This document shows, in pieces, positions 24,832 through 43,204 of a DNA stretch of 64,000 nucleotides; position 1 is the stretch's first letter, and each line of letters starts with the position of its first letter. The notes under the pieces are model-generated. The model was not told where the DNA came from. It made no database searches and was given only the letters and a program-made list of their open reading frames with translations. Both the position numbers and the translations under genes were made by a program. Origin of the DNA: Candidatus Mycolicibacterium alkanivorans (GTDB lineage Bacteria; Actinomycetota; Actinomycetes; Mycobacteriales; Mycobacteriaceae); contig NZ_JAIVFL010000001.1 of assembly GCF_022760805.1 (NCBI RefSeq), positions 124,001 through 188,000 on the forward strand. Reading direction: 5' to 3'.

Positions 24832-25173
24832 AGTCGCCGACGATGCGGGCCGGTCCGCGGCCCGAGGAGGAGGCGGCCGTTGGGCCTGAGTCGCCGACGA
24901 TGCGGGCCGGTCCGCGGCCCGAGGAGGAGGCGGCCGTTGGGCCTGAGTCGCCGACGATGCGGGCCGGTCCGCGGCCCGAGGAGGAGGCGGCCGTTGGGCC
25001 TGAGTCGCCGACGATGCGGGCCGGTCCGCGGCCCGAGGAGGAGGCGGCCGTTGGGCCTGAGTCGCCGACGATGCGGGCCGGTCCGCGGCCCGAGGAGGAG
25101 GCGGCCGTTGGGCCTGAGTCGCCGACGATGCGGGCCGGTCCGCGGCCCGAGGAGGAGGCGGCCGTTGGGCCTG
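24832..25173. repeat. MIRU-like 57-bp tandem array, six copies
   Basis: Six copies start at 24832, 24889, 24946, 25003, 25060 and 25117 and look identical. Each has GACGATG, a perfect stem CGGGCCG-GTCCG-CGGCCCG and then AGGAGGAGG, followed by a ~20-base linker. The array fills the 360-bp gap between two minus-strand membrane protein genes. A 57-bp unit keeps one reading frame open on the plus strand, but codon use gives no sign that it is translated. Confidence 0.95.
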
Positions 25174-25178
25174 AGTGG

Positions 25179-25595
25179 TCACTTGGTGAAGAACCCGTGC
25201 GCGTCCTGGCGGTGCAGCAGATAGGTGCCGCCCACGATCAGCACCGACCCGATGATTCCGGTGACCGCGAACGTCACCGCAGCCACCGGCTCGCGGGGTA
25301 CGGAGAACAAGCTGGCCGCGGTGTAGATGACGGTGGCCACCCCGCCACCGGTCAGCAGGGTACGGGTCCAGCGGTAGCCCGAGCGCATCAGCAGCAGGAA
25401 GGTCAGCACCACCGCCCCCAGCGTCAGCGCGAAGAGCGTGGTGATCGCGACGGCGAGGGAGGAGGCGTGCTTGACCGTGAACGCGTCGACCAGGTAGCCG
25501 GTCAGCAGCAGCGGCAGCGCGACGAGCCACAGCCAGAAGCCGGTGTCGACGTCGTCCGGGCGGGCCGGTGCGCCCGTCGGTTGGGGTGGTGTCAC
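25179..25595 (-). CDS. polytopic membrane protein coupled to hemB
   Basis: A 138-residue protein with four helices (about 20-40, 46-70, 80-98 and 103-125). It starts at GTG 25595, overlapping the hemB stop by 4 bp, so it belongs to the hem operon transcript. The position suits MTB Rv0513/Rv0514. I see no motif that gives a function; the N terminus ([14 protein letters not shown]) is proline-rich and cytosolic. Confidence 0.7.
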
Positions 25596-26572
25596 GCCAG
25601 CCAGCCCGCGACGTCGGCCGCCCAGTAGGTGAGCACGATGTCGGCACCCGCGCGGCGGATGCTGGTCAGCGACTCCACCGCGGCGGCGCGGCCGTCGACC
25701 CAGCCGTTGGCCGCGGCGGCGCTGATCATCGCGTACTCACCGGAGACCTGGTAGGCGGCCACCGGCACCGGTGACACCTCGGCCGCCGCGCGCACGATGT
25801 CGAGGTAGGCCATCGCGGGCTTGACCATCACGATGTCGGCGCCCTCGTCGAGGTCGAGCTCGATCTCGCGCAACGCCTCCCGCGCATTGCCGCTGTCCTG
25901 CTGATAGGTGCGGCGATCACCCTGCAGGCTGGAGGCCACCGCCTCGCGGAACGGACCATAGAACGCCGAGGCGAACTTCGCGGCGTAGGCCAGGATGATC
26001 ACGTCGGTGAAACCCGCCGCATCCAGGCCGTCCCGGATGGCGGCCACCTGACCGTCCATCATGCCGCTGGGGCCCACCACGTGGGCGCCGGATTCCGCTT
26101 GTGCCACAGCCAGTTTCGTGTACTGCGCGTTGGTGGCGTCGTTGTCCACCCGACCGCGAGCGTCGAGCACCCCGCAGTGGCCGTGGTCGGTGAACTCATC
26201 AAGGCAGGTGTCGGCCATCAGGACGGTGTGATCGCCGAAGTCCTTGGCAAGATCGCGCAGAGCGACGTTGAGGATCCCGTCGGGGTCGACACCGCACGAC
26301 CCGACGGCGTCCTTGTCCTCGTCGCGCGGCACCCCGAACAGCATCAGCCCGCCGACGCCGGCCTCGACCGCCTCGGCGGCCGCGCGGCGCAGCGAGTCGC
26401 GGGTGTGCTGCACAACCCCGGGCATCGACGCGATCGGCCGGGGCTCGTCGATGCCGTCGGCGACGAACATCGGCAGCACCAGATGCCGTGGCTCCAGCGA
26501 GGTCTGGGCGACCAGCCGGCGCAGCGCCGGCGTCGAGCGCAACCGGCGTGGGCGGTGCCTCGGGAAGGACAT
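25592..26572 (-). CDS. hemB: delta-aminolevulinic acid dehydratase (porphobilinogen synthase)
   Basis: A 326-residue enzyme that condenses two ALA molecules to porphobilinogen. The two Schiff-base lysines are in [15 protein letters not shown] and [11 protein letters not shown]. The metal region is [16 protein letters not shown]: two of the three cysteines of the zinc type are kept and the middle one is Asp, as I recall for MTB. ATG 26572 is 12 bp after the hemD stop. It is the fourth gene of hemA-hemC-hemD-hemB. Confidence 0.95.
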
Positions 26573-26584
26573 GCGGCCCCTCTC

Positions 26585-28276
26585 TTAGCGGCGGCGGCTC
26601 TTCTTGCGGGGCGGGGGCAGCGCGCCCTCGGCACGCAGCCGGGCCGCATGCTCGGCCAGCGCGTCGACCAGCGGGCCCACCGCGGCGGTCTCCGGCTGCA
26701 CATCGACCCGCAACCCGAACTCGGCCGCCGTCTCGGCCGTCTTCGGCCCGATGCAGGCCACGATGGTCCGGGCGTGCGGCTTGCCGGCGATGCCGACCAG
26801 GTTGCGCACCGTCGAACTCGACGTGAAGCACACCGCGTCAAACCCACCGGTCTTGATCATCTCGCGGGTCTCGGCCGGCGGCGGGGCCGCACGCACGGTG
26901 CGGTAGGCGGTGACGTCCTCGATCTCCCAGCCCCGTTCGCGCAGACCCTCGGCCAGCGTCTCGGTGGCGATGTCGGCGCGCGGCAGCAACACCCGGTTGA
27001 CCGGGTCGAAAATGCCGTCGTACTCCGGGAATTCGTCGAGCAGGCCCAGCGAGGACTGCTCACCGGAGGGCACCAGCTCGGGGCTGACACCGAAGGCGCG
27101 CACACGATCGGCGGTGGACTCACCGACACAGGCGATCTTCACACCGGAGAACGCCCGGGCGTCCAGACCGAACTCGCCGAACTTCTCCCAGACTGCGCGC
27201 ACCGCGTTGGTGGAGGTGAACACCACCCACTGGTAGCGGCCGTCGACCAAACCCTTGACGGCCCTTTCCATCTGGGCCGGGCTGCGCGGCGGCTCGACGG
27301 CGATGGTCGGCACCTCGATGGGCAGTGCGCCGTGGGCGACCAGCCGATCGCTCATCTCGCCGGCCTGGTCCTTGGTGCGCGGCACCAGCACGGTCCAGCC
27401 GTACAGGGCGCGGCTCTCCCACCAGTTCAGCTTCGCGCGGTGCGCCACGGTCTTGCCGATGGTGACCACCAGCGTGCCGGTCAGCGAGCCCGCCGGGTCG
27501 TTGCCGCCGGCCAGGGTGGCACGGTCGGTCAGACCCGCCAGTGTCGTCTCCACCGAGCGCTGACCGCAGGTGGTGCCGTTGCAGGTCACCACGCTCGGGG
27601 TGCTCGCGGCCAGGCCGTACTCGATCAAAGTGCGCGCGGCGTCCGGTAGATGCGAGGCCGCCGCGGTCAGGATCAGCGGGCCGGGCGCGGCGGCCAGGGC
27701 CGCCCAGTCCACCTCACCGCGGACGTCGGCCACGGTGTGCGCCGAGCCCAGCGGCAGGCCCGCGTAGGTCGGCACCGCGCTGGTGGCGGGCAGTCCGGGA
27801 ACGATCTCGAACTCCATGTGCGTCTTGGCCACGGCGTTGACCTCGGCGATCACCGAGTCCACCGACAGCGGGTCACCGGCGACCAAGCGCACGACGTCGA
27901 AGCCTGCCTTGGACTCGGCCACCAGGATCTCGGCCACTTCGGCTGGGTCGCCGAGCGCGGGCCGGATGTCCGGGCCCACCGACACCACCGGCGGGGCGAT
28001 CTCGTCGGCGATCGGCCCGTCGGAGTCCTGGCCGAGGGTCTGCTCGCGCGGCGCGCCCTTCTCCGGCGCGGGGGCGGGGCCGACCGCGGGCGGCAGATCG
28101 GTGCCGACGACGTTGAGGACGGCCTGGGGCACGTCGGGGTCGGTGAGGACCAGGGCGGCATTGGCGAGAACCGCGCGGGCACGCGTCGTCAGCAGATTTG
28201 GGTCACCGGGACCCGAGCCGACGAACGTGATGTGTCCCGGCTTCGCCTTGCGCCGCCCGCTACCGTGGCCAGTCAT
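26585..28276 (-). CDS. hemD: fused uroporphyrinogen-III methyltransferase / uroporphyrinogen-III synthase
   Basis: A 563-residue two-domain protein. Residues ~15-250 form the SUMT (CobA/CysG-type) methyltransferase, with TFVGSGPGDPNLLTTRA and EIVPGLPATSAVPTYAGLPLG; residues ~275-535 form HemD, with VVFTSTNAVRAVWEKF and CFTSSSTVRNLV. The first domain leads toward siroheme/B12, the second closes the heme ring. The central SUMT region has an extra Pro/Ala/Gly stretch (GPAPAPEKGAPRE) and may be degenerate. It corresponds to Rv0511. Confidence 0.92.
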   Translation of the reverse strand: MTGHGSGRRKAKPGHITFVGSGPGDPNLLTTRARAVLANAALVLTDPDVPQAVLNVVGTDLPPAVGPAPAPEKGAPREQTLGQDSDGPIADEIAPPVVSVGPDIRPALGDPAEVAEILVAESKAGFDVVRLVAGDPLSVDSVIAEVNAVAKTHMEFEIVPGLPATSAVPTYAGLPLGSAHTVADVRGEVDWAALAAAPGPLILTAAASHLPDAARTLIEYGLAASTPSVVTCNGTTCGQRSVETTLAGLTDRATLAGGNDPAGSLTGTLVVTIGKTVAHRAKLNWWESRALYGWTVLVPRTKDQAGEMSDRLVAHGALPIEVPTIAVEPPRSPAQMERAVKGLVDGRYQWVVFTSTNAVRAVWEKFGEFGLDARAFSGVKIACVGESTADRVRAFGVSPELVPSGEQSSLGLLDEFPEYDGIFDPVNRVLLPRADIATETLAEGLRERGWEIEDVTAYRTVRAAPPPAETREMIKTGGFDAVCFTSSSTVRNLVGIAGKPHARTIVACIGPKTAETAAEFGLRVDVQPETAAVGPLVDALAEHAARLRAEGALPPPRKKSRRR

Positions 28277-28311
28277 CGCTTCACTCCCGCTCTACTCCGC
28301 CATCTCGTTCG

Positions 28312-29262
28312 TCACGGAGCTCGTGTCGACATGACCTCGCGTGCACCGAGTTCGAACAACTCCCCGGCCACCGAGAGCCCCAGCTCTGCGGACCGGCCGG
28401 GCGTGCCGACACCGGACGCGCGGATCACGTCGGATCCGTCTGCCGCCGCCACGCAGGCGCGCAGTGACAGCTCCTCGAAGACGCGGCCGTCGTCATCGAT
28501 GGACTCGACCACCTCGGCGATCGCTCCCACCGGTGCCGAACAACCGGCCTCCAGTTCGGCCAGCAGGACTCGCTCCGCAGTGACCGCGGCGCGGGTGTCG
28601 GGGTCGTCCAACTCCGCCAACAGCGCCGCGAGCTCGGCGTCGCCTGCGCGGCACTCCACCGCGAGCGCACCTTGAGCCGGCGCCGGCAACATCTGCACCG
28701 GCTCCAGCGTCTCGGTGACATCGCCGAGTCGTCCAAGACGGGCCAACCCCGCCCGGGCCACCACGATGGCGTCGAGATCACCACTGCTTACCCTGTTCAA
28801 CCTGGTGTCTAGGTTGCCTCTTAGGGGGCGGATTTCCAAACCGAGACCCAGTGCTTTAAGCTGCGCGGCCCTGCGCACGGACGACGTGCCGATCACCGAG
28901 CCCGCCGGCAACTCTCCCAGGACGAGCCCGTCGCGGGCCACCAGGGCGTCGCGCGGGTCCTCACGGCGCGGTATCGCGGCGATGACGAACCGGTCGTCGG
29001 CGGCGGTCGGCAAATCCTTGTACGAGTGCACGGCCATGTCGACCCGGCCGTCGGCGATGGCCTCGCGCAGCGCCGCGGTGAACACACCCACCCCGATCTC
29101 GGCAACCGGCAGCTGCGAGCGGTCACCCTCGGTGCTGATGACGACCAGTTCGGCGCGATGCCCGCGCCCAATGAGTTCGTCCCTGATGGTCCCGGCCTGG
29201 GTCGTCGCCAGCAGGCTGCCCCGGGTGCCGATCCTGATGACCGCGTTGTCGCTGTCGGTCAA
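28312..29262 (-). CDS. hemC: hydroxymethylbilane synthase (porphobilinogen deaminase)
   Basis: A 316-residue enzyme that polymerises four porphobilinogens. Seen are [14 protein letters not shown] at the N terminus, [25 protein letters not shown] and the dipyrromethane-cofactor cysteine in [11 protein letters not shown]. The start is TTG 29262 (TTGACCGAC), five bases after the hemA stop; no ATG or GTG lies before the conserved VIRIGTRGS. The TTG may lower expression relative to hemA. Confidence 0.93.
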
Positions 29263-29267
29263 TCGTC

Positions 29268-30635
29268 CTACTCGGTGTGGTCGGGCAGGCTGGCGTCGAA
29301 TTCCGGTGCCACGAGCGGTAGTTCGCCTGCCGCCACGGCGTCGACGGCCTGCGGATCGAGTTCGAAGAGTTCACGCAACGCTTCGGCGTAGCTGTTGCCG
29401 CCAGGTGCGCTGGCCAGCTGCTTGACCCGCACCGTGGGGGCATGCAGCAGCTTGTCGACCACCCGGCGCACGGTGCGTGCCACCTCGTCGCGCTGGGTGT
29501 CGTCCAGCCCCGGCAACCGGTTCTCCAGCCGCAGCAGCTCGCCCTCGACGACGTCGGCGGCGCGTTGCCGAAGGGCGGTGACGGTCGGGGTGACCTCGGC
29601 CATCCGCTGCCCGGCCAGGTAGGCAGCAACCTCTACTGCAACGATCCGGCGGGCGGCCTCGGCGTCGGTGGCGGCGGCACGGGCCGACGGTTCGCGCTGC
29701 ACCCGGTCCATGTCGACGACCGAGACGCCGGGCAGACCGGCAACGGCGGGGTCGACGTCGCGGGGCATACCCAGGTCGCACAACACCAGCGGCTGGGTGG
29801 CCTCGTCGCGCCGGCTAGCGGCCAGCGCGTGGTACACATCGGCCAGCGACACCACCGGCCGGACCGCGCCGGTGCAGCTGACCACCACGTCGGCGGCGGC
29901 CAGCGCGGTGGACAGGTGCTCGAGCGAGAGGGCCTCGGCGCCGATGCCCTGCTCCCGGATGTTCTCGACCAACCGCTGGGCGCGCGGCAGCGAACGGTTG
30001 ACGACGTGGATGTGGGTGACGCCGGCGCGTACCAGGTGCGCAACCGACAGTCCGCCCATCGAACCGGCGCCGACCACCGCGGCCGTGCGACCCGTGAGCC
30101 CGTCAAGACGGGAGCCGGCGATGTCCAGGGCAACCGACACCACGCTGGCGCCTGCGGCGTCGATGGCGGTCTCGGAATGCACCCGCTTGCCGACCGACAG
30201 GGCACGCTGGGCCAGGTCGTGCAGGATCTTGCCGACGGTGCGATTGGCCTCGGCGGTGGCGTAGGCGCGGCGAACCTGGCCCAGCACCTGCTGTTCGCCG
30301 ATGACCGCACTGTCCAGACCGCTGGCCACCGCGAAGAGGTGCTCGACAGCGGCCTCGCTGTAGCGAACGTAGGCGTACTTGGTCAGATCGCTCATCGACA
30401 TGCCGGAGTGCTCGGCGAGCACTTGGCCGATCGCCGACAGACCGCCGTGGAAGGCGTCGACCACGGCGTAGACCTCGACCCGGTTGCAGGTCGACAGCAC
30501 CATGGCTTCGGTCACCAACGGAGATTGGAGCACCTGGTCGATGATCTTGACCTGGTCAGACTCGTCGGTAGACAGCTGCTCGAGGACGGAGACCGGAGCG
30601 CTGCGATGCGACACCCCAAACAGCAGGACGCTCAC
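29268..30635 (-). CDS. hemA: glutamyl-tRNA reductase
   Basis: A 455-residue first enzyme of the C5 heme pathway, reducing Glu-tRNA to glutamate-1-semialdehyde. The catalytic cysteine is in [14 protein letters not shown] (Cys50); the NADPH domain has [17 protein letters not shown]; and the C-terminal dimerisation domain follows from about residue 330. It starts at GTG 30635 and heads the hemACDB operon. The 106-bp upstream gap to the glutaredoxin-like gene contains no clear hairpin. Confidence 0.94.
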
Positions 30636-30741
30636 GGCACGATCACCTGGCCTGCTCCCTCGCTGTCGCGCAGTTGTCCGTTAGTGAAACTTACTTCCAC
30701 GGTAATCCCGGCGCAGCCGGCTCACCAAATTCTCGTGGTGT

Positions 30742-31002
30742 TCACCCGAGCGCTAAATCGGCCCGCAGCCGCGCCTCGTCGATATCCCAGTAGCTGTGCT
30801 CACGGCCGTCGAGCAGAACGACGGGCAACCGGTCGCCGAATTCGGCCCGCAGTGCCGAGTTCCCAGCGGCCGCAGCGGCGTCGACATCGGTGCTGGACAG
30901 GTCGAAATCCAGCTCGGCGGACAGCTCGGTCAGCCGGTCGTATACCCGGTGGCAAAGGGTGCACCCGGCGCGGGTCAGCAGTTCGACATGTCGGCGGCTC
31001 AC
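30742..31002 (-). CDS. glutaredoxin-like protein (Rv0508-like)
   Basis: An 86-residue thioredoxin-fold protein of the DUF836/glutaredoxin-2-like group. The redox motif is [12 protein letters not shown] near the N terminus and the substrate-side cis-proline is in [10 protein letters not shown]. It lies upstream of hemA on the same strand, as in MTB. GTG 31002 begins the conserved part. It is divergent from the HAD gene with only 31 bp between starts. The thiol partner is unknown. Confidence 0.82.
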
Positions 31003-31033
31003 CCGAGCCAGTATCCCAGTTAGGGTGAGAGCC

Positions 31034-31984
31034 ATGGGTTCCGGGGACCATGACGAGGAGCTCGCGGACTCCGAAGCCGGACGGGCCAGCGCGCAGCGTG
31101 CCGTCGATGACCTGATCAGCGAGCAGGCCAGCGCGGTCGCGCGCGAGGCCAGCATCGCGGCCAACCGTGAACCGGGCCCCGAAGCGATCCACCAGCCCAC
31201 TCCGCCGCCCACCGACCTGACCGCGGCAGCGTTCTTCGACGTCGACAACACCCTGGTCCACGGCTCGTCGCTGGTGCACTTCGGCCGCGGCCTGGCCGCG
31301 CGGAAGTACTTCACCTACTCCGACATGTGGAAGTTCCTCTACGCACAGGCCAAGTTCCAGCTGACCGGCCGGGAGAACAGCGACGACGTGGCCGAAGGCC
31401 GGCGCAAAGCACTGGCCTTCATCGAGGGTCGCTCGACCGCGGAGCTGGTGGCCCTCGGCGAGGAGATCTATGACGACATCATCGCCGATAAGATCTGGCC
31501 TGGCACCAGGGCGCTGGCGCAGATGCATCTCGAAGCCGGCCAGCAGGTGTGGCTGGTCACCGCGACGCCCTACGAGCTGGCGGAGACCATCGCCAAGCGG
31601 CTGGGCTTCACCGGCGCGCTGGGCACCGTCGCGGAGTCGCAGAACGGGGTGTTCACCGGACGGCTGGTGGGCGATATCCTGCACGGTGTCGGCAAGGCGC
31701 ACGCGGTGCGGCAGCTGGCCATCCGCGAGGGACTCAACCTCAAGCGCTGTACGGCCTACTCCGACAGCTACAACGACGTGCCGATGCTGTCGCTGGTCGG
31801 CACCGCGGTCGCCATCAACCCCGACGCCGACCTGCGTGAGCTGGCCCGCGAACGCGGCTGGGAGATCCGCGATTTCCGGACCGCGCGCAAGGCGGCCCGC
31901 ATCGGGGTGCCCTCGGCGCTGGCGCTCGGCGCGGTCGGCGGTGCGCTGGCCGCGGCGGTGTCCCGTCGGCACGAGCACCGCTGA
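31034..31984 (+). CDS. HAD-IB family phosphatase (SerB1-like)
   Basis: A 316-residue haloacid dehalogenase-type hydrolase. Motif I is [13 protein letters not shown] (about residue 70), motif [12 protein letters not shown], motif III in [10 protein letters not shown] and motif IV in [16 protein letters not shown] ~60-residue charged N-terminal extension precedes the domain, and a C-terminal hydrophobic stretch ([14 protein letters not shown]) may be a membrane helix. It matches the MTB gene named serB1, but the family includes other phosphatases, so phosphoserine activity is not certain. ATG 31034 is chosen. Confidence 0.83.
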
Positions 31985-32086
31985 CTTTCTTCCGAGGTCG
32001 AGTGTGGGCCCCGTGCAGGCCAGAGCGCGATTTCGCGTGCATCAGCCGCACAGTGGCCGCGAACGACGCTGATAGGCTCAGACGTC

Positions 32087-32587
32087 ATGTCCATCGCCAG
32101 CGAGATCATCGGAACTCACTTCCGCTACCCGGACTACTATCTGGTCGGACGCGAGAAGATTCGCGAATTCGCCAAGGTGATCCAGAGCGAAGACCCGCTG
32201 CACTTCAGCGAGGAGGCGGCCGCAGCCGCCGGCTACCCCGACCTGGTGGCTCCGCTGACGTTCATCGCGATCGCGGGCCGTCAGGTGCAGCTGGAGATCT
32301 TCCGCAATTTCGACGTCGGCATCAATTTGGCCCGTGTCATTCACCGCGACCAGAAGATCCAATTCCACCGGCCGATCATCGCCGGCGACAAATTGTTCTT
32401 CGACTCCTGGCTGGATTCGGTGATCGAATCGCATGGCACCGTCATCAGTGAATTGCGCAGCGAAGTCACCGACGCCGAGGGCAAACCGGTGATGACGACA
32501 GTGGTGACCATGATCGGCGAGGCCAACAGCGACGAGGAGACCAACGCTCAGGTCGCCGCGATCGCCGCGGCGGCGATGCGTCGCTGA
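32087..32587 (+). CDS. MaoC/FAS1-like hot-dog dehydratase (Rv0504c-like)
   Basis: A 166-residue hot-dog-fold protein closely resembling the HadA/HadC subunits of the mycolic-acid FAS-II dehydratase. It has [47 protein letters not shown] and the [16 protein letters not shown] segment. No hadB-type catalytic partner is adjacent, so it may pair with a subunit elsewhere. ATG 32087 follows a 102-bp gap after the HAD gene that contains the small palindrome CGCGA-TT-TCGCG. Confidence 0.83.
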
Positions 32588-32594
32588 TCGACGC

Positions 32595-33647
32595 TCAGCC
32601 GAAGAACATGTTGCGACGCTGAGCCAACAGCTGATACAGCGTCTGCTGAATGGTCTCGCGCACCTGGTCGGTGAGTTCGAAGGTGACCATCGGATCGTCG
32701 GCCGCCGACTCGTCGTAATCGGCAGTCTCGATCGGTGTGCCGAATGCGATGTGCCACTTGGACGGAAGCGGCACCAGCCCGGCCGGACCGGCCAGCGGGA
32801 ACAACGGCGTGATCGGAAAGTACGGCAGCCCCAGCACACGCGCCAGCAGCTTCACGTCGGCCAGCATCGGGTAGATCTCCTCCGAGCCGACGATCGAGCA
32901 CGGGATGATCGGCGCCCCGGTGTGCAGGGCCGCCGAGACGAACCCGCCGCGGCCGAACCGCTGCAGCTTGTAGCGGTCCCGGAAGTGCTTGCCCAGCCCC
33001 TTGTAGCCCTCCGGGAACACCGCGGTGAGCTCGCCGCCGGCCAGCAACCGGTGCGCGTCAATGGTGCACGCCATAGTGTGCCCGGCCTTGCGCGCGATCG
33101 GGCCGAGCATCGGCATGTCGAAGACCACGTCCGCGGCCAGCAGGCGCAGGTCGCGACGCTGGGGGTGGTGGTCGTGTACCGCGACCGAGAGCATCAGGCC
33201 GTCGAACGGCAGCGTCCCGGCGTGGTTGGCGACCAAGAGGCCGGCGCCGTTCGCCGGCAAATTCTCGATGCCGCTGACCTCGGCGCGGAACCAATTGTCG
33301 AAAAAGAAACGCAGCAAAGGCAGCACGATTGCGTTGTTGAACTGCGGGTCGAAGCCGAATTCGTCAACGGTGTAATCACCGGTGAGGCGCTTCCGGAAGA
33401 AATCGGCGACCGCCGAAATTCGTTGCGCGAGTTCATTCGGCTCGTCGTCGTCGCGGCCCACACCGGCGGCGCCGCGGCGCCCGTCGATTTCGCGGACTAC
33501 GGCTGCGATGTCGTCGGCCGAGGCGCGGGAACCGGACTCGGAGGCCAACGAGGGATGTCGGCGCGCAGCCTCGGCGCGCCGAGCCGCCGCCGCTCGACTC
33601 GAATTCGAATGCAGCGGAATCACTTTCGCCTTTGATTCACCCGCCAC
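32595..33647 (-). CDS. PlsC-type lysophospholipid acyltransferase (Rv0502-like)
   Basis: A 350-residue acyltransferase. Residues ~1-110 are a basic, disordered region; the PlsC domain follows with VANHAGTLPFDG (the HX4D-like motif, here H-AGTLP-FD), VFPEGYKGLGK and PIIPCSIVGSEEIYP. It likely acylates a glycerol or sugar lipid on the membrane. GTG 33647 is the start. It is adjacent to the galE2-like gene on the same strand with a 28-bp gap, as in MTB. The acceptor is unknown. Confidence 0.85.
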   Translation of the reverse strand: MAGESKAKVIPLHSNSSRAAAARRAEAARRHPSLASESGSRASADDIAAVVREIDGRRGAAGVGRDDDEPNELAQRISAVADFFRKRLTGDYTVDEFGFDPQFNNAIVLPLLRFFFDNWFRAEVSGIENLPANGAGLLVANHAGTLPFDGLMLSVAVHDHHPQRRDLRLLAADVVFDMPMLGPIARKAGHTMACTIDAHRLLAGGELTAVFPEGYKGLGKHFRDRYKLQRFGRGGFVSAALHTGAPIIPCSIVGSEEIYPMLADVKLLARVLGLPYFPITPLFPLAGPAGLVPLPSKWHIAFGTPIETADYDESAADDPMVTFELTDQVRETIQQTLYQLLAQRRNMFFG

Positions 33648-34749: not shown

Positions 34750-34814
34750 CTGGACAGCCTATCGGGCCGCGCGTGGCCCGGCAGGACTCGGCGACGCCGG
34801 GCGGCAGCGGACGG

Positions 34815-34916
34815 CTACTTGCCCAGTTTTCTGCGCTGGACCCGGGTACGACGCAGCAGCTTGCGGTGCTTCTTCTTCGACATGCGCTTACGCCGCTTCT
34901 TGATGACTGAACCCAT
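34815..34916 (-). CDS. small ribosomal protein bS22 (Rv0500B-like)
   Basis: A 33-residue, extremely basic peptide ([18 protein letters not shown] then [15 protein letters not shown]). This is the AURKAIP1/COX24-type protein found as an extra 30S subunit protein in mycobacterial ribosomes. It is too short for standard ORF cut-offs. The start is ATG 34916 and the stop TAG 34815-34817. It lies between galE2 and the HTH gene, as in MTB. Confidence 0.92.
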
Positions 34917-35035
34917 GAATTCCGCTACCTAATTCCTAATTCCTCGCAGTGCCCGCACTGCGGCGGGTGTCCTTGTGTCCCGGACACCTTACCCAAACCA
35001 GCAGGGAGAACGGAAAACGGCCGGGGAGTGCGGAC

Positions 35036-35302
35036 TCATCCCGCGTCGAAGTACGACGTCTCCAGCAGGTCGTGGACAGCCTTGGCGTGCACCCGGAACG
35101 AACGGCCGACCCGGACGGCGGGCAGCTCCCCGTTGTGCACGAGCCGGTAGACCGTCATCTTGCTGACGCGCATCAGCGCGGCCACTTCGGCGACGGTGAG
35201 AAATTGAGCTGCGGCGACCGGCTGACCGTCAGCGCCACCGGCATCACGCGCCGATTTTCCGCCAGCCGCGTCCCGCGCCGATGGCCCGTTGGTAGACGTC
35301 AT
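35036..35302 (-). CDS. helix-turn-helix DNA-binding protein (Rv0500A-like, BldC/excisionase type)
   Basis: An 88-residue protein. After a ~30-residue Ala/Gly-rich leader it has a MerR-type winged HTH: LTVAEVAALMRVSKMTVYRLVHNGELPAVRVGRSFRVHAKAV. This architecture is shared with BldC and phage excisionases; no prophage surrounds it, so a chromosomal regulator or nucleoid-associated role is more likely. ATG 35302 is the start. Upstream, 139 bp separates it from proC. Confidence 0.85.
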   Translation of the reverse strand: MTSTNGPSARDAAGGKSARDAGGADGQPVAAAQFLTVAEVAALMRVSKMTVYRLVHNGELPAVRVGRSFRVHAKAVHDLLETSYFDAG

Positions 35303-35441
35303 CGCAACCCAATCCGTCAGGCACGGGCAGTTCCAGCGGCTTCCCCACCGCTGGCACCCACACGTGCATACACGAGGAGAATAGCGTGGCCAGTGAGGTT
35401 ACTGCGACGGGTGTGGGTCAATCCATCAGAATATTCTTGAA

Positions 35442-36305
35442 CTACTCTGATGTAATTCCTAGCTGCTCAGAGCGGGTTTTTGCGGCGTCGATGGCCGCGG
35501 TGACAGCGGCACGCAACCCTCCCCGCTCCAATTCGCGCAGGCCAGCGGCGGTGGTGCCACCCGGCGAGGTCACGACGGCCCGCAGCCGGGCCGGGGTGGT
35601 GTCCAGTCCGGCGTCGGCCCCCGCAGTTCGCTCGCTGTCGATGCGGTCGAGCAGCATCGCCGCCGAACCTGCCATCGTCTGCACCGCCAGGTCCGTCGCA
35701 GCCGCCCTGTTGAGCCCGTTGGCGACCGCGGCGTCGACCAGTGCCTCGACGAAAAGGAAGAAGTACGCCGGCCCCGATCCGGACACCGCCGTGACCGCGT
35801 CGAGCTGACTTTCCGGGACCGTCAGGACCTCGCCCACGCACTCGAGCAACGCCGAGACGTCGGCAAGGTGCTCGGGGGTGGCGAAGCGGCCCGCGGTCAG
35901 CGCGCTGACGCCGGCACCGACCAGTGCCGGGGCATTGGGCATCACCCGGACCACCGGGGAGCCCGCGGGCAGGCGCGACTCGTAGAAGCCGATCGTCACC
36001 CCGGCCACCACCGAGACGAAGACCTGCTCGACGCTGTTGCTCTCGGCCTGGGCGACCACATCGGCGATCTTGCCGACGACGGCCTCCGCGTCGGCCGGTT
36101 TGACGGCGACGATCACGAAGCCAGCGGTCTCGACCGCCTCGGCCACGCTGGCCACCCGCACCGAGTACATGTCAGCCAAGTAGCGGGCGCGCTCGGGCGA
36201 CCGCTCGACGACAACGAGGTCCTTGACCTGACGACCCGCCCGGAGCAACCCCGCAAGGAGCGCCTCGCCCATACTGCCGCCACCGATGATCGCGATTCTG
36301 GCCAT
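35442..36305 (-). CDS. proC: pyrroline-5-carboxylate reductase
   Basis: A 287-residue NAD(P)H-dependent enzyme that makes proline. The Rossmann motif is IAIIGGGSMGEALLAGLL; VRVMPNAPALVGAG and the C-terminal signature SGSGPAYFFLFVEALVDAAVANGL with later SPGGTT mark the family (the quoted stretch is about residues 178-200). ATG 36305. It is the first gene of its strand after a single MIRU-like element. Confidence 0.94.
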   Translation of the reverse strand: MARIAIIGGGSMGEALLAGLLRAGRQVKDLVVVERSPERARYLADMYSVRVASVAEAVETAGFVIVAVKPADAEAVVGKIADVVAQAESNSVEQVFVSVVAGVTIGFYESRLPAGSPVVRVMPNAPALVGAGVSALTAGRFATPEHLADVSALLECVGEVLTVPESQLDAVTAVSGSGPAYFFLFVEALVDAAVANGLNRAAATDLAVQTMAGSAAMLLDRIDSERTAGADAGLDTTPARLRAVVTSPGGTTAAGLRELERGGLRAAVTAAIDAAKTRSEQLGITSE

Positions 36306-36324
36306 GGTGGGAAACCCTAGCGGC

Positions 36325-36364
36325 CGACCGATGCGTGCCGTTTACCGCACGAGGAGGAGGCCGC
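36325..36364. repeat. MIRU-like element, single copy
   Basis: GACCGATG, stem CGTGC/GCACG with an 8-base loop, then GAGGAGGAGGCCGC. It lies between proC (start 36305) and the TIM-barrel gene (stop 36368). It has the same order of parts as the arrays at 24832, 39230 and 43078 but is not tandemly repeated. Confidence 0.7.
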
Positions 36365-36367
36365 AAA

Positions 36368-37213
36368 TCAGCGCAACAGGTGGGTGCGCGCGAACTGCAA
36401 CGACTCCGTCAGCAGCGCCTCACGTTCGGCTTTGGTGCGCGCCCCGGAGGTTGTCACCTCGAGGATCACGTGGCCGGCGAAGTCGCTGCCGGCCAGCATC
36501 TGGCACACCCCGACGGTGGGCTGGTTGCCGCGGCCGGGCACCAGGTGCTCGTCGGTGGACGCGCCGCTGCCGTCGCACAGATGCAGGTGCACCAGCCCTG
36601 CGCCCATCCTGTCGGCCATCTCGAGCGCGTCGGTGCCCGCCGTAGCGGTGTGGGAGAGGTCCAGCGTGTAGTGCGCGTGGTTGCCGTCCAGGGGGTCGTA
36701 GGACGGCGCGAAGGCCGAGACCCCCACACCGGGGTGGCCGCCGCGTTTGCGCATCCGCTCGATCGAGGGCTGACCCGAGCCGAAGAAGCGGTCGGCGCGG
36801 AACGGGAACATGTTCTCCACCGCGACCATCACCTCGCTGCGCGTCTCGAGTTCGGCGACCTGCTCGCTGAATCCCTCCGCGTAGCGGCGCTGCCAGCGGA
36901 ACGGCGGATGCACCACGACGGTCAGCGCGCCGAGCCGCTCGGCGGCCTGCACGCTGCGGGTCAGCTTCGAGATCGGGTTGGCGCCCCACACTCGCTGCGA
37001 GATCAGCAGACACGGCGCGTGCACCGACAGAACCGGCATGTTGTAGCGCCGGGAGAGCTTGGCGATCGCGCCGATGTCCTGGCTGACCGCTTCGGCCCAC
37101 ACCATCAGCTCGACGCCGTCGTAACCGAGTTCGGCGGCGTACTCGAAAGCGGCCTCGGTCCTCAGCGGATAGACCGAGGCCGTCGAGAGGCCGACCTTGA
37201 TAGCTGGGCGCAC
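36368..37213 (-). CDS. sugar phosphate isomerase/epimerase-like TIM barrel (Rv0498-like)
   Basis: A 281-residue AP-endonuclease-2/xylose-isomerase-like barrel. Metal ligands are suggested by ELMVWAE, LSVHAP, VVHPPF, VENMFPF, DLSHTATAG and the terminal VILEVTTSG. GTG 37213 is chosen because the conserved part begins RPAIKVGLSTASVYP. It is 7 bp after the stop of the membrane protein gene, in the ppx1 operon. The reaction is unknown. Confidence 0.82.
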   Translation of the reverse strand: MRPAIKVGLSTASVYPLRTEAAFEYAAELGYDGVELMVWAEAVSQDIGAIAKLSRRYNMPVLSVHAPCLLISQRVWGANPISKLTRSVQAAERLGALTVVVHPPFRWQRRYAEGFSEQVAELETRSEVMVAVENMFPFRADRFFGSGQPSIERMRKRGGHPGVGVSAFAPSYDPLDGNHAHYTLDLSHTATAGTDALEMADRMGAGLVHLHLCDGSGASTDEHLVPGRGNQPTVGVCQMLAGSDFAGHVILEVTTSGARTKAEREALLTESLQFARTHLLR

Positions 37214-37220
37214 GAACGAA

Positions 37221-38204
37221 TCAGGTCGACTGTAACAACGCCAGGGGCCCAAGAGTCACCAGCGCACCGACCGCGACGGCGATCAGCGTGCTGGCGATAT
37301 CTTCGGTCTTGCGGACGACACGAACGGCAACGACGAGGCCGAGGATGACCAGCACCGAGAGCACCAGGGCCACGATGTTGTTCCACTGCCACAGCTGATC
37401 GAACGCAATGAAGAGCCCGGCCCCGAAAGCGACCGCGAGGATCGACTGGAGGACCACCAGGGTGCCGCGCCGCAGGACGGTGAGTTTGCTCTCGCGGGGG
37501 CGTTGCTCCTGCTCGGTGTCCACCGCGGTGGCCGCTGCCACCGAACCCGTCTCGTCGTCGTTCTCCTGAGCCAGGCCACGGCGTGCCCTATCGTCGGCCA
37601 CCGTCTCGCCGCCGAACAGCGTGCCGCCCGAGGACCGCAGATACGACTGCAGCTCGGTGGCCTCCTCGACGTGCTCATCGGAGGTCAGGTCGAGTTCCGG
37701 GGCGGACTCGTCGACCGGGTCGAAGGTCATCTGCTCGGCATCGGAGCTGTCCGAGGCCACGGCGGGCGCGGAGGCCGGGCGGCGAAGCGGGCGGGGGTCG
37801 TGGCTGCGCTCGGGCCCGCGTTCACGACGCGGAGTGGGGGCCTCCGAGCGCTGGGGCGGAACATCGAAGGGCTGTGGTGCAGGTGCCGGTTCGGCGGGCG
37901 TTTCGGGGGCCGCGGTCGCCGACCCGTTGGTGGCGCGGGATTCGATGGTGGGCCGGGCCGCCGTGGTCTCCTCGGCGGCCTCCTGCTCGCTCTGCTGGTC
38001 CTCGGTGGCCTCGGTGCGCACGACGGGGAGTTCGCCGGTGCGGATGATCGGAATCTCGCCGGTGAGCTCGGCGACGGTCACGGCATCGCTGTTGCTGCGG
38101 CGGCGGCGCCGGCGGCCACCGACCGGCGGCGAGCCGATCGTACCGTTCTTCGCCAGCAGCTCGGCGACCGAGATCGGCCGGCTGGGAGTTTCGTCTGCAG
38201 TCAT
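37221..38204 (-). CDS. large-N-terminus membrane protein (Rv0497-like)
   Basis: A 327-residue protein. Residues 1-235 are low-complexity and acidic/proline-rich, with an Arg cluster ([10 protein letters not shown]) near residue 30 and the repeated phrases VAELLAKNG and [21 protein letters not shown], which suggest a binding segment. Three to four helices make up the last ~90 residues. ATG 38204 overlaps the ppx1 stop by 4 bp. The plan fits a membrane-anchored scaffold; function unknown. Confidence 0.8.
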
Positions 38205-39217
38205 CGTGTGCCTCTCGATCGGGCGGCAGTCGACCGATCAGAATCGTGGCTTCCAGCATCCCCCACGGACGTTTCCACCAAGGCGGTTCCATCGGCTTCA
38301 CTGTCGAGTCGGCGCAGGATGATGCCCTCCCGCAGCGCCCACGGGCAGATGTCGACGTATTCCAACGACAGTGCTCGCATACTCGCCTCCGCCACCAGAG
38401 CACCCGCCACGATCTGTGGCGCCCGCTCGGCGCTGACTCCTTCCAACTCGGCACGATCTGCCGTGGTCATCCTAGAGATGAAAGATATGAGTTGCCTCAA
38501 ACCGTTGGCCGTCAGCGTCCGCTTGACCCGTGGCCCGGCACCCGACGGGGCCGCTCCGGTGAGCCTGGCCAGCGATCGGAACGTCTTGGAGGTCGCCACG
38601 GCCAGATCGGGCGCACCGGCAGCGAGCACGGCGGCGCTGGCCTCGGCGACCTCGTTGTCCAGCCAGTCGCGCAGCATGGCCACCCGGCGCCGGCCCGGCG
38701 GATCGTCGGGCAGCCACTCGCGGGTCAGCCGGCCCGCGCCCAGCGGCAGCGAGAGGGCGACCTCGGGGGCCTCGTCGACGCCGTTGGACAGCTCCAGGGA
38801 GCCGCCACCGATATCGACGTTGATGATGCGCCCGGCACTCCAGCCGTACCAGCGGCGCACCGCCAGGAACGTCAGCCGCGACTCGTTGGCACCGGAGAGC
38901 ACCTGCAGGTTCACCCCGGTCTCGGCCTGTACCCGGGCGAGTACCTCTTCAGAATTCTTGGCGTCGCGGACCGCCGAGGTGGCGAACGCCATCAGGTCTG
39001 CGCAGCCGGAGCTGGCGGCGATCTTGGCGAATTCGGCGACGGTGTCGATCAGCTTGTGGGCGCCTCGGCGGGTGAGCCTGCCGGAGTCGTCGATCGCCTC
39101 AGCGAGACGCAGGCTGGCCTTGGTGGAACTCATCGGGGTGGGGTGACCGCCGCGATGCGCATCCACCACGAGCAGATGAACCGTATTGCTGCCCACGTCG
39201 AGCACGCCTAATCGCAC
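38201..39217 (-). CDS. ppx1: exopolyphosphatase, short type
   Basis: A 338-residue Ppx/GppA-family enzyme that releases phosphate from short polyphosphate. The ASKHA nucleotide-binding motifs are [17 protein letters not shown] and [13 protein letters not shown]. It lacks the C-terminal HD domain of long Ppx proteins, as MTB Ppx1 does. GTG 39217. Its upstream side faces the MIRU-like array at 39230, so promoter sequence must lie in or beyond the repeats. Confidence 0.92.
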
Positions 39218-39229
39218 CGGATAAACCTA

Positions 39230-39440
39230 GCGTGGCGACGATGCGGTCCGGTACGGACCGAGGAGGAGCCGCGCAATCGGGCGCCGCGTGGCGACGATGC
39301 GGTCCGGTACGGACCGAGGAGGAGCCGCGCAATCGGGCGCCGCGTGGCGACGATGCGGTCCGGTACGGACCGAGGAGGAGCCGCGCAATCGGGCGCCGCG
39401 TGGCGACGATGCGGTCCGGTACGGACCGAGGAGGAGCCGC
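39230..39440. repeat. MIRU-like 56-bp tandem array, 3.8 copies
   Basis: Copies start at 39230, 39286, 39342 and 39398; the last stops after 43 bp. Each has GACGATG, stem CGGTCCG-GTA-CGGACCG, then AGGAGGAGCCGC and a linker. It lies between the divergent starts of ppx1 (39217) and the cysteine-rich gene (39483) and fills 211 of 265 bp. The 56-bp length is not a multiple of three. Confidence 0.95.
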
Positions 39441-39482
39441 ACCAAGATTCGACTGCGGGCCGCTTCGACTAGCGTTGGCGCT

Positions 39483-40259
39483 GTGACGCATGAGCACCCC
39501 GGCGAGGTCGAACTGGACTTCCCCCGTGAGTGGTTGGAGTTCTACGACCCGGACAATCCCGAGCACCTGATCGCAGCGGATCTGACCTGGCTGCTGTCGA
39601 ACTGGACGTGCGTCTTCGGTACTCCGGCCTGCCAGGGCACCGTCGAAGGCCGCCCGGACGACGGCTGTTGTTCGCACGGGGCGTTCCTTTCCGACGACGA
39701 CGACCGCGCCAAGCTCGACGACGCCGTCAAGCAGCTCACCGACGCCGATTGGCAGTTCCGCGACAAAGGGTTGGGCCGCAAGGGCTATCTGGAGATGGAC
39801 GAGTACGACGACAAGCCCAACCTGCGCACCCGCAAGTACAAGGGCGCGTGCATCTTTCTCAACCGCCCCGGCTTCCCCGCCGGCATCGGGTGTGCGCTGC
39901 ACACCAAGGCGCTCAAGCTCGGTGAGGAGCCGCTGACCATGAAGCCCGAGGTGTGCTGGCAGCTGCCGATCCGCCGCGTCCAGGAGTGGGTCACCCGGCC
40001 CGACGGCACCGAGATCCTCAAGACCACCATCACCGAGTACGACCGCAGGGGCTGGGGCGAGGGCGGTGCGGACCTGCGCTGGTACTGCACCGGCGACCCC
40101 GCCGCACACGTCGGCAAGAAGCAGGTCTGGCAGTCCTATGCGCCCGAACTCACCGAGCTGCTCGGCGAAAAGACGTACGCCGAACTGGCCGCGATGTGCA
40201 AACGGCGCAGCGGCATCCCGCTGATCGCCGTACATCCGGCCACTCGCGCCGCCCGCTGA
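39483..40259 (+). CDS. conserved cysteine-rich protein (Rv0495c-like)
   Basis: A 258-residue protein with clustered cysteines: [56 protein letters not shown] and RWYCTGD. The spacing suggests an Fe-S or zinc site like that of YkgJ/DUF3109 proteins. GTG 39483 starts after the repeat array; the frame is open through the repeats but has no homology there. Conserved in MTB beside ppx1. Function unknown. Confidence 0.78.
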
Positions 40260-40278
40260 CGGGCAGCTGCGAGGGCGG

Positions 40279-40965
40279 TCAGCCCTCGAGCTTGTAGCCC
40301 AGCCCGCGCACCGTCACCAGGTGCACCGGGTTGGCCGGATCGGCCTCGATCTTCGAACGCAGCCGCTTGACGTGCACGTCGAGGGTCTTGGTATCGCCGA
40401 CGTAGTCCGCGCCCCAGACCCGGTCGATCAGCTGACCGCGGGTGAGTACCCGGCCGCTGTTGCGCATCAGATACTCCAACAGATCAAATTCCTTGAGCGG
40501 CAACGTGATCGGCTCGCCGTTGACGGTGACCACGTGGCGTTCGACGTCCATGCGGACCGGGCCTGCCTCCAGGACGGCATCACCGACTCCGGAGTCGTCG
40601 GCCTCACTGCCGCGGCGCAACACCGCCCGGATACGGGCGATCAGCTCCCGCGCCGAGTACGGCTTGGTGACGTAGTCGTCGGCGCCGAGTTCGAGGCCGA
40701 CGACCTTGTCGATTTCGCTGTCACGTGCAGTCACCATGATCACCGGCACGCTGGAGCGGGCCCGCAACTGCTTGCAGACGTCGGTCCCCGTCATGCCGGG
40801 CAGCATCAGGTCGAGCAGGACGATGTCGGCACCCGCCCGGTCGAATTCGGCCAGGGCGGAGGGTCCGTCGCCCACTACCGTGGCCTCGAAACCCTCCTTG
40901 CGGAGCAGGAAGGCCAGCGGGTCGGCCAGCGATTCCTCGTCCTCCACGATCAGCACATTGGTCAT
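40279..40965 (-). CDS. regX3: phosphate-responsive response regulator RegX3
   Basis: A 228-residue OmpR/PhoB-type regulator. The receiver domain has acidic pocket residues VEDEES, phosphoacceptor Asp in [13 protein letters not shown], and the conserved Lys in [12 protein letters not shown]. The winged-HTH domain has [20 protein letters not shown] and [14 protein letters not shown]. It activates phosphate-starvation genes in mycobacteria. ATG 40965 overlaps the senX3 stop by 4 bp. Confidence 0.95.
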
Positions 40966-42161
40966 CTGGCTACTGCCTCCTCGTCACGGGCCTCTCGGTT
41001 GGCCTCGTCGTCGGTATCTGGATAGGCGGGTATGGACAGGGTGAACGTCGAGCCGGTGCCCGGCTGGCTCCACAGCCGGATACTGCCGTTGTGGTTGGCC
41101 GCCACGTGTTTGACGATGGCCAGCCCGAGGCCGGTGCCGCCGGTCGCGCGCGAGCGCGCCTTGTCGACCCGGAAGAAGCGCTCGAAGACCCGCTCCTGAT
41201 CGGCGCGGGCGATGCCGATGCCGCGGTCGGTGACCGCGATCTCGATGTTGTCACCGCGGCGGCGCCTGCTGATCGAGACATTGGAACCGTCGGGCGAGTA
41301 GGCGATGGCGTTGGAGATCAGGTTGGCCAGCGCCATCACGAGCAGCGCCTCGTCGCCGAGCACCCGGAAACCGCTCGGGGCGTCGGTGGTGACCGTGATG
41401 TCAGCGCTGTCAGCCGCCACCTTGTGACGCGAAATCGCTTCGCTGACAACGGTATCCACGTCAACCGATTCGAGATCCGGTAGCGGCTCGGCGCCTTGGA
41501 GGCGGGACAGCTCGATCAGCTCTCCAACCATGCTGGCCAGCCGCTGGGATTCGGTGAGAATCTTCTCGCCGAAGCGTTGCGCAGTCTCGGGGTCGTCGGC
41601 GGACTCCAGCAGCGCCTCGGCCAGCACACCCATCGCGGCCACCGGGGTCTTCAGTTCGTGGCTGACGTTGGCCACGAAGTCGCGGCGGCTGGCCTCCATG
41701 CGAGCCTGCTCGGATTGGTCGTCGAGGTACACCACGGCGAACCGCGGGGCCTGGTCGCTGAGCAGCCGGACGTGGCCGCGCACCGACAGCCCGGAACGTC
41801 CCGCAGCCGCCCGCCGCGGTGGGGACAGGTCGACTTCGACGTCCTCGCCGGTGGCCAGGGTGCGCTGGGCCGCTTTCCACGCCCGTTCGTCGAGTAGCCG
41901 GTCACGCACCAGACCGAGCTCCACGGCTCGGTCATTGATGAGCACCACGTCGCGCAGGCCGTCGACCACCACCATGCCGATCGGCGCCAGCGAGACGACG
42001 TACTGCAGCATCTGCGACACCGTGATGCCCGCGTCGCTGACCGCGCGTCGCTGCTGGTGCTCGCGACGGCGTGGGCTGAGTGCGACCCCGATACCGAGGC
42101 CGAGGGCGAGCGCCACCAGCGCCGCGACGGTGACCAGTAGTGCCACCGAAACAACACTCAC
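40962..42161 (-). CDS. senX3: sensor histidine kinase SenX3
   Basis: A 399-residue kinase with an N-terminal helix (about residues 3-25), a PAS-like region, the phosphoacceptor His in [17 protein letters not shown], and ATPase boxes [31 protein letters not shown] and [12 protein letters not shown]. It partners RegX3 in phosphate sensing. GTG 42161. In MTB the senX3-regX3 junction holds MIRU repeats; here the genes overlap directly by ATGA. Confidence 0.95.
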
Positions 42162-42180
42162 GCGAAAATCGTACGCACCG

Positions 42181-42271
42181 GGTGAACGCCATCCCAGCAG
42201 CGTGCGGCCAATTCGGGATAAGTCACACCCGCGGGCGCAGGTATTCCGCCGCTGTTCACCCGGCGTTTGCT
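42181..42271. promoter_or_regulatory. candidate PHO/RegX3-type boxes upstream of senX3
   Basis: GTTCACCCGG occurs twice in opposite orientations in the senX3 upstream region: on the minus strand ending near 42181-42187 and on the plus strand at 42254-42263. The plus copy is followed 11 bp later by a weaker GTTTGCT. GTTCACC with 11-bp spacing resembles the actinobacterial PHO box, which suggests autoregulation. Confidence 0.35.
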
Positions 42272-42291
42272 CCCCGGGACCTGATGCAGGG

Positions 42292-43047
42292 CTACTTTGC
42301 GCCCTGGCTGGCCACCGCCGCCGCCCCGGCGGCGGCCGCCTCCGGATCCAGGTAGGTGCCGCCTGCGATGAGGGGCTTGAGTTCGGCGTCCAGGTCGTAC
42401 CGCAGCGGGATGCCGGTCGGGATGTTCAGGCCGACGATGTCCTCGTCAGACATTCTGTCGAGGTACTTGACCAGCGCGCGAAGCGAGTTGCCGTGCGCGG
42501 CGATGAGCACCGTCTTGCCGGCCCGCAGGTCGGGAACGATCGTCTGCTCGAAGTACGGCACGAACCGCGCGACCACGTCGGCCAGGCACTCGGTGAGCGG
42601 GCCCCCGCCGATGTCGGCGTAACGCGGGTCAGCGTCCTGGCTGTACTTGCTTCCCCTCTCGATGGGCGGCGGCGGGGTATCATAGCTTCGCCGCCACTTC
42701 ATGAACTGCTCTTCGCCGTATTTGGCCTTGGTCTCGGCCTTGTCTAGGCCCTGCAGTGCGCCGTAGTGGCGCTCGTTGAGGCGCCAGTTGCGCAGGACCG
42801 GAATCCACAGCCGATCGGCGGCATCCAGCGCCAGGTGTGCGGTAGTGATAGCACGCCGCAGCAGCGAGGTGTACAGCACGTCGGGCAGCAAGCCCTGCTC
42901 GGCCATCAGCTTGCCGCCGCGTACCGCCTCCGCGCGGCCCTTGTCGGTCAGGTCGACATCGACCCAGCCGGTGAACAGGTTCAGCGCATTCCATTCGCTT
43001 TCGCCGTGCCGGAGCAGGATCAGCGTCGCCGAAGTATCCGAAGCCAT
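42292..43047 (-). CDS. gpmA: 2,3-bisphosphoglycerate-dependent phosphoglycerate mutase
   Basis: A 251-residue glycolytic mutase interconverting 3- and 2-phosphoglycerate. Seen are [20 protein letters not shown] with the catalytic His, [14 protein letters not shown] and [17 protein letters not shown] 43047 is chosen ([11 protein letters not shown]). The frame is open upstream through two repeat units but that part has no similarity. It corresponds to gpm1 (Rv0489), placed before senX3 as in MTB. Confidence 0.94.
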
Positions 43048-43077
43048 GACCGAAAGTCTCTCACGGCCGGGCTCAGT

Positions 43078-43204
43078 CGTCGTCTTCGACGACCCGACCC
43101 TCGACTCCTCCTCAGGCCTCTCCGAGGCCTGCATCGTCGTCTTCGACGACCCGACCCTCGACTCCTCCTCAGGCCTCTCCGAGGCCTGCATCGTCGTCTT
43201 CGAT
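43078..43204. repeat. MIRU-like 57-bp tandem array, two copies plus 13 bp
   Basis: On the minus strand each unit has GACGATG, stem CAGGCCTC-GGA-GAGGCCTG and GAGGAGTCGAGG. Copies start at 43078 and 43135, with a remnant from 43192. The array lies between gpmA and ybjN, and the ybjN stop codon (43169-43171) is inside the second copy. Confidence 0.93.

Follow-up and report, generated by a model that had tools for sequence, protein, structure and literature searches.

Tandem arrays of a covarying, probably strand-specific hairpin repeat in Candidatus Mycolicibacterium alkanivorans

Considered here is a stretch of 64,000 nucleotides from Candidatus Mycolicibacterium alkanivorans (contig NZ_JAIVFL010000001.1, positions 124,001 to 188,000), which as a whole is referred to as the window. 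Found within it is a short repeated element, in which stems that covary between copies are flanked by two constant words, GACGATG and GAGGAGGAG. A covariance-model scan places 14 copies of this element at five sites. As a plain pattern, i.e., GACGATGN{5,35}GAGGAGGAG, the element is matched 12 times in the window versus not at all in each of 100 dinucleotide shuffles, and 28 times in the 4.05-Mb genome overall versus zero times for the reversed pattern, with the covariance model giving 36 matches genome-wide at an expect value (E) of 0.01 or less. Copies are divided into class I and class II by what is an ad hoc rule on core sequence, and it is to class II that the three tandem arrays of the window belong.

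The first of these arrays is located at 24828-25176 on the plus strand (57-bp unit, 6.1 copies; cores at 24839, 24896, 24953, 25010, 25067 and 25124) and has the inner stem CGGGCCG/CGGCCCG. It is flanked by two minus-strand open reading frames (ORFs) and thus is antisense to both. Adjoining it on the minus strand is TAGGCT (24827-24832, of the form TANNNT), which may serve ORF 24369-24818 of that strand as its -10 hexamer, this arrangement of hexamer beside array being that of locus L001. The second array, at 39230-39440 on the plus strand (56-bp unit, 3.8 copies; cores at 39237, 39293, 39349 and 39405), has the inner stem CGGTCCG/CGGACCG, closes on the loop GTA, and lies between divergent genes. 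To one side is a gene of the Ppx/GppA phosphatase family (PF02541; 38201-39217, minus strand), with a putative -10 hexamer, TAGGTT (again TANNNT), at 39224-39229 on the minus strand, the CTA(G) of which is found too at orthologous sites without the element. To the other side is a conserved ORF without a Pfam match (39483-40259, plus strand), present in 292 of 297 genomes of the genus and used as the anchor for ortholog comparison.

The third array, at 43077-43203, is found on the minus strand (57-bp unit, 2.2 copies; cores at 43105-43138 and 43162-43195), has the inner stem CAGGCCTC/GAGGCCTG, and is positioned in the gene direction, 5' of a histidine-phosphatase (gpm-like) ORF. A YbjN-family ORF (PF10722; 43169-43696, minus strand) ends inside this array, which provides its stop codon and last residues (43169-43203), and insertion therefore altered a protein end. 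The remaining two sites are single diverged copies, both on the plus strand. That at 36314-36369 has the imperfect constant word GACCGATG and outer arms GCGGCC/GGCCGC (covariance model E 1.7e-6), while that at 45068-45120 has a class I-like core, with GAGGATGAG replacing GAGGAGGAG (E 3.8e-6). The neighbourhood includes ppx, a two-component pair, and the gpm-like ORF.

A preliminary description of this DNA had recognized tandem arrays at 24832, 39230 and 43078, and both these arrays and the three stem sequences which it gave for them are as it had them. Its five sites sharing constant words are, more precisely, three arrays which share those words and two single copies in which the words are imperfect, with the model nonetheless scoring both. 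Its term intergenic, in turn, needs correcting for the third array, given the ORF which ends there.

That pairing is kept as sequence drifts, as that description proposed, is seen in comparisons of several kinds. Across 29 aligned rows, both classes included (11 loci of the same genome plus 18 of 28 loci from relatives), 71.2% of cells pair versus 59.0% following shuffling, and the covariation score is 0.285 versus 0.114, with none of 500 shuffles reaching it and with slid versions at or below 0.103. Across 17 class II rows pairing is 92.5% versus a control value of 77.2%, the former being optimistic as these rows were picked from 103 arrays for similar length, and the score is 0.408 versus 0.133. 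With 103 distinct class II cores, inner positions one to six are Watson-Crick in 87, 91, 96, 93, 90 and 73% of instances, respectively, versus 46 to 70% for the same positions once arms have been swapped between copies (up to 103 distinct cores). Neither of the outcomes which the preliminary description had named as counting against its proposal is thus observed, since compensatory changes do exceed those of the shuffled, slid and arm-swapped controls and the stems of other copies are not mostly unpaired.

A blind scan, in which 36 columns from the flanks and arms of 103 arrays were compared in all pairs, provides a better control for relatedness than does shuffling, since the unpaired columns possess the same history. 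The top nine of its 630 column pairs are inner or outer stem pairs, the tenth consists of two adjacent flank columns (the TA of TAG), and the eleventh is a further stem pair. At orthologous sites, with both classes considered and comparisons limited to equal lengths, there are 11 Watson-Crick double changes versus 6 single breaks, along with 4 single changes to or from wobble, 1 unpaired double change, and 90 unchanged pairs. Class II cores differ as well between loci of one genome while remaining paired, with identity found for just 1 of 272 within-genome, between-locus pairs (13 genomes; the one is in genome G191), and recent spread of class II therefore looks rare.

As folded, the element consists of an outer stem of six or seven pairs, an internal loop, an inner stem of commonly four to seven pairs, and then a short loop. 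The internal loop, CGACGATG facing AGGAGGAG, is nearly invariant across loci. It could be drawn, between the Watson-Crick stems, as C-G, G·A, A·G, C-G, G·A, A·G, T·G, G·A, which is to say as what would be two tandem G·A motifs split by a C-G pair, and that central C-G pair is recovered also by RNAfold and RNAalifold. A tandem GA/GA step is present as well within the inner stem of 27 of 123 distinct cores of both classes. Supplied with no structure, RNAalifold recovers 15 hand-drawn pairs from the 17 class II rows, and RNAfold, unguided, gives the fold for L001, L007, L014 and L026 (z of -1.92, -4.09, -2.50 and -3.15), the value of -4.09 being that of one unit of the array at 39230-39440. The covarying outer stem, the internal loop drawable as G·A pairs, and the loop preference described below all go beyond the preliminary description. 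As to intrinsic termination, no T run follows the outer arm in the window's arrays, as judged by inspection rather than with a terminator scan, and what follows the inner stem, by construction of the pattern, is GAGGAGGAG.

Which strand folds is indicated by the mismatches. Inner and outer pairs together display 57 G·T versus 24 A·C (17 versus 10 for inner pairs, 40 versus 14 for outer), as counted only at positions where either mismatch is possible, with two positions having a fixed-G partner left out. This excess implies that it is the element strand that folds, whether as RNA or as single-stranded DNA. The loop then has a preference of its own. A three-base loop is present in 68 of the 123 distinct cores, and for 50 of those 68 it is GNA, its middle base being C in 16, A in 15, G in 11 and T in 8. 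With class II cores alone, and without application of the tandem-GA rule, 30 of 47 three-base loops are GNA, while in 86 arrays from 13 genomes, a set which partly overlaps the first, 39 of 50 are. As background, perfect hairpins with three-base loops at the same loci, outside of elements, present GNA in 26 of 429 cases versus TNC in 30 of 429. We know of no rewarding of GNA loops by either folding program, with RNA or with DNA parameters. In DNA, a mini-hairpin which has a G-C stem and a loop of the GNA or GNNA kind is described as being of extraordinary stability (PMC4686876, in the portion available). The C-GNA-G loop is held in common with mini-hairpins of the d(GCGAAGC) type, and the commonest class I core contains GCGAAGC, but there the DNA is synthetic or aptamer (PMC4686876, same portion), whereas here the loop is that of a natural repeat family.

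The family is widespread in Mycobacterium though not universal. The covariance model is matched, at E of 0.01 or less, by 127 of 198 sampled genomes of the genus, with 71 having no match, and copy counts in this sample are lower bounds since scoring was limited to about 28 candidates in each genome. With a stricter pattern for class II there are matches in 114 of 248 genomes, with the reversed pattern absent among the matches listed; the reversed control of a broader pattern is matched once among 41 genomes. When 150 genomes were sampled from the order, seven of those from outside of Mycobacterium had one weak match each (E of 2.9e-4 to 0.0096), which are taken to be chance and thus not as presence outside of the genus. 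Five genomes of other genera matched the raw pattern, and by eye these matches looked like coding sequence. Nine loci (L029-L032, L042, L047 and L049-L051) likewise were judged by eye to be coding, and were excluded from later counts though kept in the background-hairpin set.

Class I and class II differ in their contexts. Class I cores resemble CAGAGCGNAGCGAT, with tandem units of 53 bp, and 38 of 48 class I arrays lie between two genes and read in their direction, the next start being predicted, as a rule, 8 nt beyond GAGGAGGAG. In 46 of 78 class I copies an ORF runs from an upstream start through the element, its stop overlapping the next start as NTGA. The 97 class II arrays, by contrast, take every orientation: 30 are sense, 18 antisense, 15 divergent, 12 convergent, 19 inside of predicted ORFs and 3 at an edge. 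A coupled ORF is found with only 8 of 148 class II copies. Assignments to the inside of ORFs (19 of 97 for class II, 6 of 48 for class I) are those of a simple gene caller with approximate starts.

Sites also are distinguishable. Directly 5' of the element there is [CT]TAG in 35 of 97 class II arrays versus 0.4% of background windows, and 25 of 48 class I arrays are beside ATGA versus 1.7% of background. Given an opposite-strand gene which starts on the 5' side, that start often is about 20 nt away and the TAG lies within a TANNNT hexamer; given a same-strand gene which ends there, the stop typically is 6-14 nt away. Intermediates exist in both directions: L057, L059 and L077 combine a class I core with flanks of class II, and at L153-L156 and L190 an ATGA-type site is occupied by a class II core.

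These contexts bear on whether the window's arrays are, as the preliminary description put it, MIRU-like, meaning like mycobacterial interspersed repetitive units. MIRUs run in the same direction as neighbouring genes, as class I mostly does though class II does not. PMC12548453 (in the portion available) describes them as apparently mobile repeats that are inserted at start codons and have an ORF with coupling at -4 nt, a description that class I fits, with the likeness being one of description rather than of sequence. A primer for MIRU-04 of M. tuberculosis had no match in three candidate genomes, and a scan of contigs returned 12 unrelated stretches and no M. tuberculosis record. MIRUs are also described as tandem units of 40-100 bp between genes (PMC2734929, available portion), a range in which the window's 56-57 bp units fall. 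Class II possesses the constant words and fold of the MIRU-type class I, with intermediates between them, and to that extent the likeness stands. The window's class II arrays, however, mostly are without the ORF and the ATGA context, occur in any orientation, and have locus-specific stems. By the features tested, i.e., coupled ORF and orientation, they are not MIRU in the strict sense, and class II instead is read as a relative of MIRU that is structured, with selection acting in place to keep a hairpin specific to one strand.

A further difference is that MIRUs have been described as lacking dyad symmetry. The founding MIRU papers are said to be Supply 1997 and 2000. No report of covarying stems in these repeats was found in the open-access literature searched, the founding MIRU papers not being included in it, and the available portion of PMC3635867 holds nothing on structure. 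In that same literature a single paper matched the sequence terms of the element, the class I core being a repetitive-element PCR primer for M. intracellulare (PMC10117815, available portion). For M. tuberculosis a systematic search has yielded stem-loop families, Myt-1 to Myt-11, with MIRU repeats falling in Myt-11 (PMC2267715); the portion available reports no covariation, and the comparison with these families is by description only, without their sequences.

Orthologous sites offer a view of insertion history. At the ppx site, where 30 regions were compared, intact copies are found in the window's own genome only. The copy in L211 has decayed but has outer arms that are complementary, L217 possesses a pair of arms lacking the words, and L227 half of an element, while L224 and L231 look empty, with CTAG still present. 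In L217 (genome G172), the element's place is taken by a perfect hairpin, GTGCACTCCG/CGGAGTGCAC, with the constant words absent. Of 31 regions for the thyX site, those filled are L248, L250, L277 and L161, while decayed copies are present in L263 and L265 and a few others may have remnants. The remainder looks mostly empty, and this is true of L249 and L251, which are among the three regions most closely related to L248. Comparison of L277 with L268 puts the insertion point directly after CTTA, and wobble steps are observed at this site. The sites of the gpm-side array and of another array of the same genome are occupied in other genomes by quite different stems (L011/L149, L014/L180), such occupants being either ancient or found at insertion hot spots. 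It was also considered that the outer arm might be copied from the target site, as the ppx-site arm, GCGTGG, is present too in one distant empty site (L231). That idea was dropped because thyX copies of two lineages share an arm while the empty sites differ.

Two further repeats of the window stand apart from the element. One is a tandem array at 16885-17119 (71-bp unit, 3.3 copies, 97% matches), unrelated to it in sequence. The other, at 54988-55107, is a 15/30-bp tandem repeat within the minus-strand ORF 54974-55594 and corresponds to a predicted Pro-Ala-Lys-Lys-rich tail, which we take to resemble that of a histone-like protein.

The preferred reading of the element is as follows. The arrays would belong to a genus-wide family of structured repeats of about 50-60 bp, one that includes the MIRU-type class I. 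Copies would have spread long ago by insertion beside a short T-rich word, YTA(G), of stop codons or -10 hexamers, would then have been multiplied locally by tandem duplication, and would now be held by in-place selection for the hairpin. Least certain are the steps that follow, in which the selected form would be a single-stranded DNA hairpin, exposed in replication, transcription or cruciform extrusion, and recognized by a putative protein. We are highly confident that this is a real family with a selected, strand-specific structure. Selection for an RNA or DNA hairpin, as the preliminary description suggested, is supported to that degree, with only a slight lean towards DNA as the molecule selected, the main reason for which is the bias towards GNA loops together with the stability of GNA in DNA. 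The preferred reading also draws on the orientation of class II, which is independent of both genes and replication, and on the finding of orthologous sites that are filled, decayed or empty. The explanation as a whole, from old dispersal through in-place hairpin selection to the single-stranded DNA form, we put at just short of an even chance.

A number of observations weigh against that reading. Of six outer pairs, two covary little (u-3/d2 ranks 30th in the blind scan and u-7/d6 is outside of the top 30), and RNAfold prefers a different outer pairing for L011. Two class I copies fold barely above shuffles with RNA parameters (z of -1.32 and -0.07), while with DNA parameters folding is weak, four class II units having z of -0.66 to -2.55 and one class I copy +0.32. 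Outer-stem wobbles are found in 40 of 618 cells, as RNA would also display. Occupied sites that are common to distant species could be insertion hot spots, and the many orthologous sites without the element mean that it is not essential.

Several of these points favour instead a structured RNA, which is the most durable of the alternatives though still a rather doubtful one. Hairpins would in this case act within transcripts, their purine-rich internal loop binding a protein or the ribosome and so tuning the translation or stability of neighbours. Consistent with this, identical units have better z-scores with RNA than with DNA parameters, outer-stem wobbles are common, and class I mostly follows the gene direction with GAGGAGGAG about 8 nt ahead of the next start. 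Expression of M. tuberculosis fpg1, moreover, correlates with the length of an upstream repeat, one not shown to be of this family (PMC2734929, available portion). Class II, however, includes the antisense, divergent and convergent arrays already enumerated. Rfam had no match above its curated threshold in the window, and at E of 1 or less on L014, L026, L061 and L155 there were but two sub-threshold matches, both off of the element. The loop too is at odds with RNA, for which GNRA is the usual type, since it is GNA that is preferred here and just 1 of 20 four-base loops is of GNRA type (GTGA).

A second alternative, which we consider improbable, is that of active mobile DNA. The single-stranded hairpin would be needed by a transposase or recombinase, in the style of REP/RAYT (repetitive extragenic palindromes and their associated tyrosine transposases) or of IS200/IS605, and resident copies would be functionless. 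Filled, decayed and empty orthologous sites, the preferred YTAG and ATGA sites, and the description of MIRUs as apparently mobile (PMC12548453, available portion) are all as this would have it. So too is G191, with four loci of very similar cores. In that genome (L152-L156), several ATGA-type sites have very similar cores of the form CGGGGCGAGGNACGAG, both stem and outer arms containing CGAG/CGAG steps, and this subfamily possibly represents more recent spread. REP and REPIN sequences are short hairpins which lie between genes, are dispersed within a genome and have constant words adjoining the stem, and here also a conserved word, GACGATG or GAGGAGGAG, stands next to a hairpin. Against this idea are the near absence of identical cores between loci, stems that differ, unlike those of REP/REPIN, at almost every locus, and the lack of association with the Y1 transposase PF01797: of the 37 genomes that have it 22 contain repeats, as do 105 of the 161 that lack it, taking two draws as the same 198 genomes. 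Orientation of class II relative to the replication fork is neutral, at 44 with versus 42 against in 13 genomes, given dnaA as origin, a terminus placed half-way round, and several genome lengths that were rounded. Mobility of the IS200/IS605 type was rejected on these two grounds, with the test covering the Y1 family alone. Outside of the window, this genome has two full-length Y1 transposase (IS200-like) matches, at G000:C1:62060-62425 and 1845032-1845397.

Less probable again, and indeed quite unlikely, is a mutational artefact. Template switching in quasi-palindromes is known in bacteria, copies one arm onto the other, and so yields paired changes without selection, for which near-perfect stems and locus-specific arms are the expected outcome. 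Copying of this sort, however, does not predict the excess of G·T over A·C, and contrary to it are the non-complementary internal loop that is nearly fixed across loci, the GNA loops far above background, and the wobble steps at the thyX site. That the constant words are kept for an encoded peptide, GDDAERSDEEERR, hardly merits consideration: the class I ORF does encode mostly ..GDDAERSDEEERR.., but for class II, and hence for the window's arrays, coding is refuted, as few copies have the ORF, core lengths fall in all three residues modulo 3 (68, 51 and 29), and the words are kept regardless.

Returning to the preferred reading, that of in-place selection for a hairpin, its consequences extend to MIRUs themselves. 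MIRU loci are standard markers in tuberculosis strain typing. What the repeats do is said to be poorly understood (PMC2734929, available portion). The MIRU repeats used in typing may form one branch within a structural family of wider extent, and if MIRUs and their relatives have one selected structure, then changes in copy number and stem need not be neutral. MIRU function would, if this is true, become testable through broken and restored stems. A genus-wide preference for GNA loops would, in addition, be evolutionary evidence of an unusual kind, pointing to a hairpin of DNA and not of RNA. Tentatively, and as a possibility more than an expectation, MIRUs and their relatives may be functional single-stranded DNA hairpins, kept locus by locus through compensatory evolution, whatever their orientation to genes and replication, and read for their shape and not their sequence by a putative dedicated mycobacterial protein.

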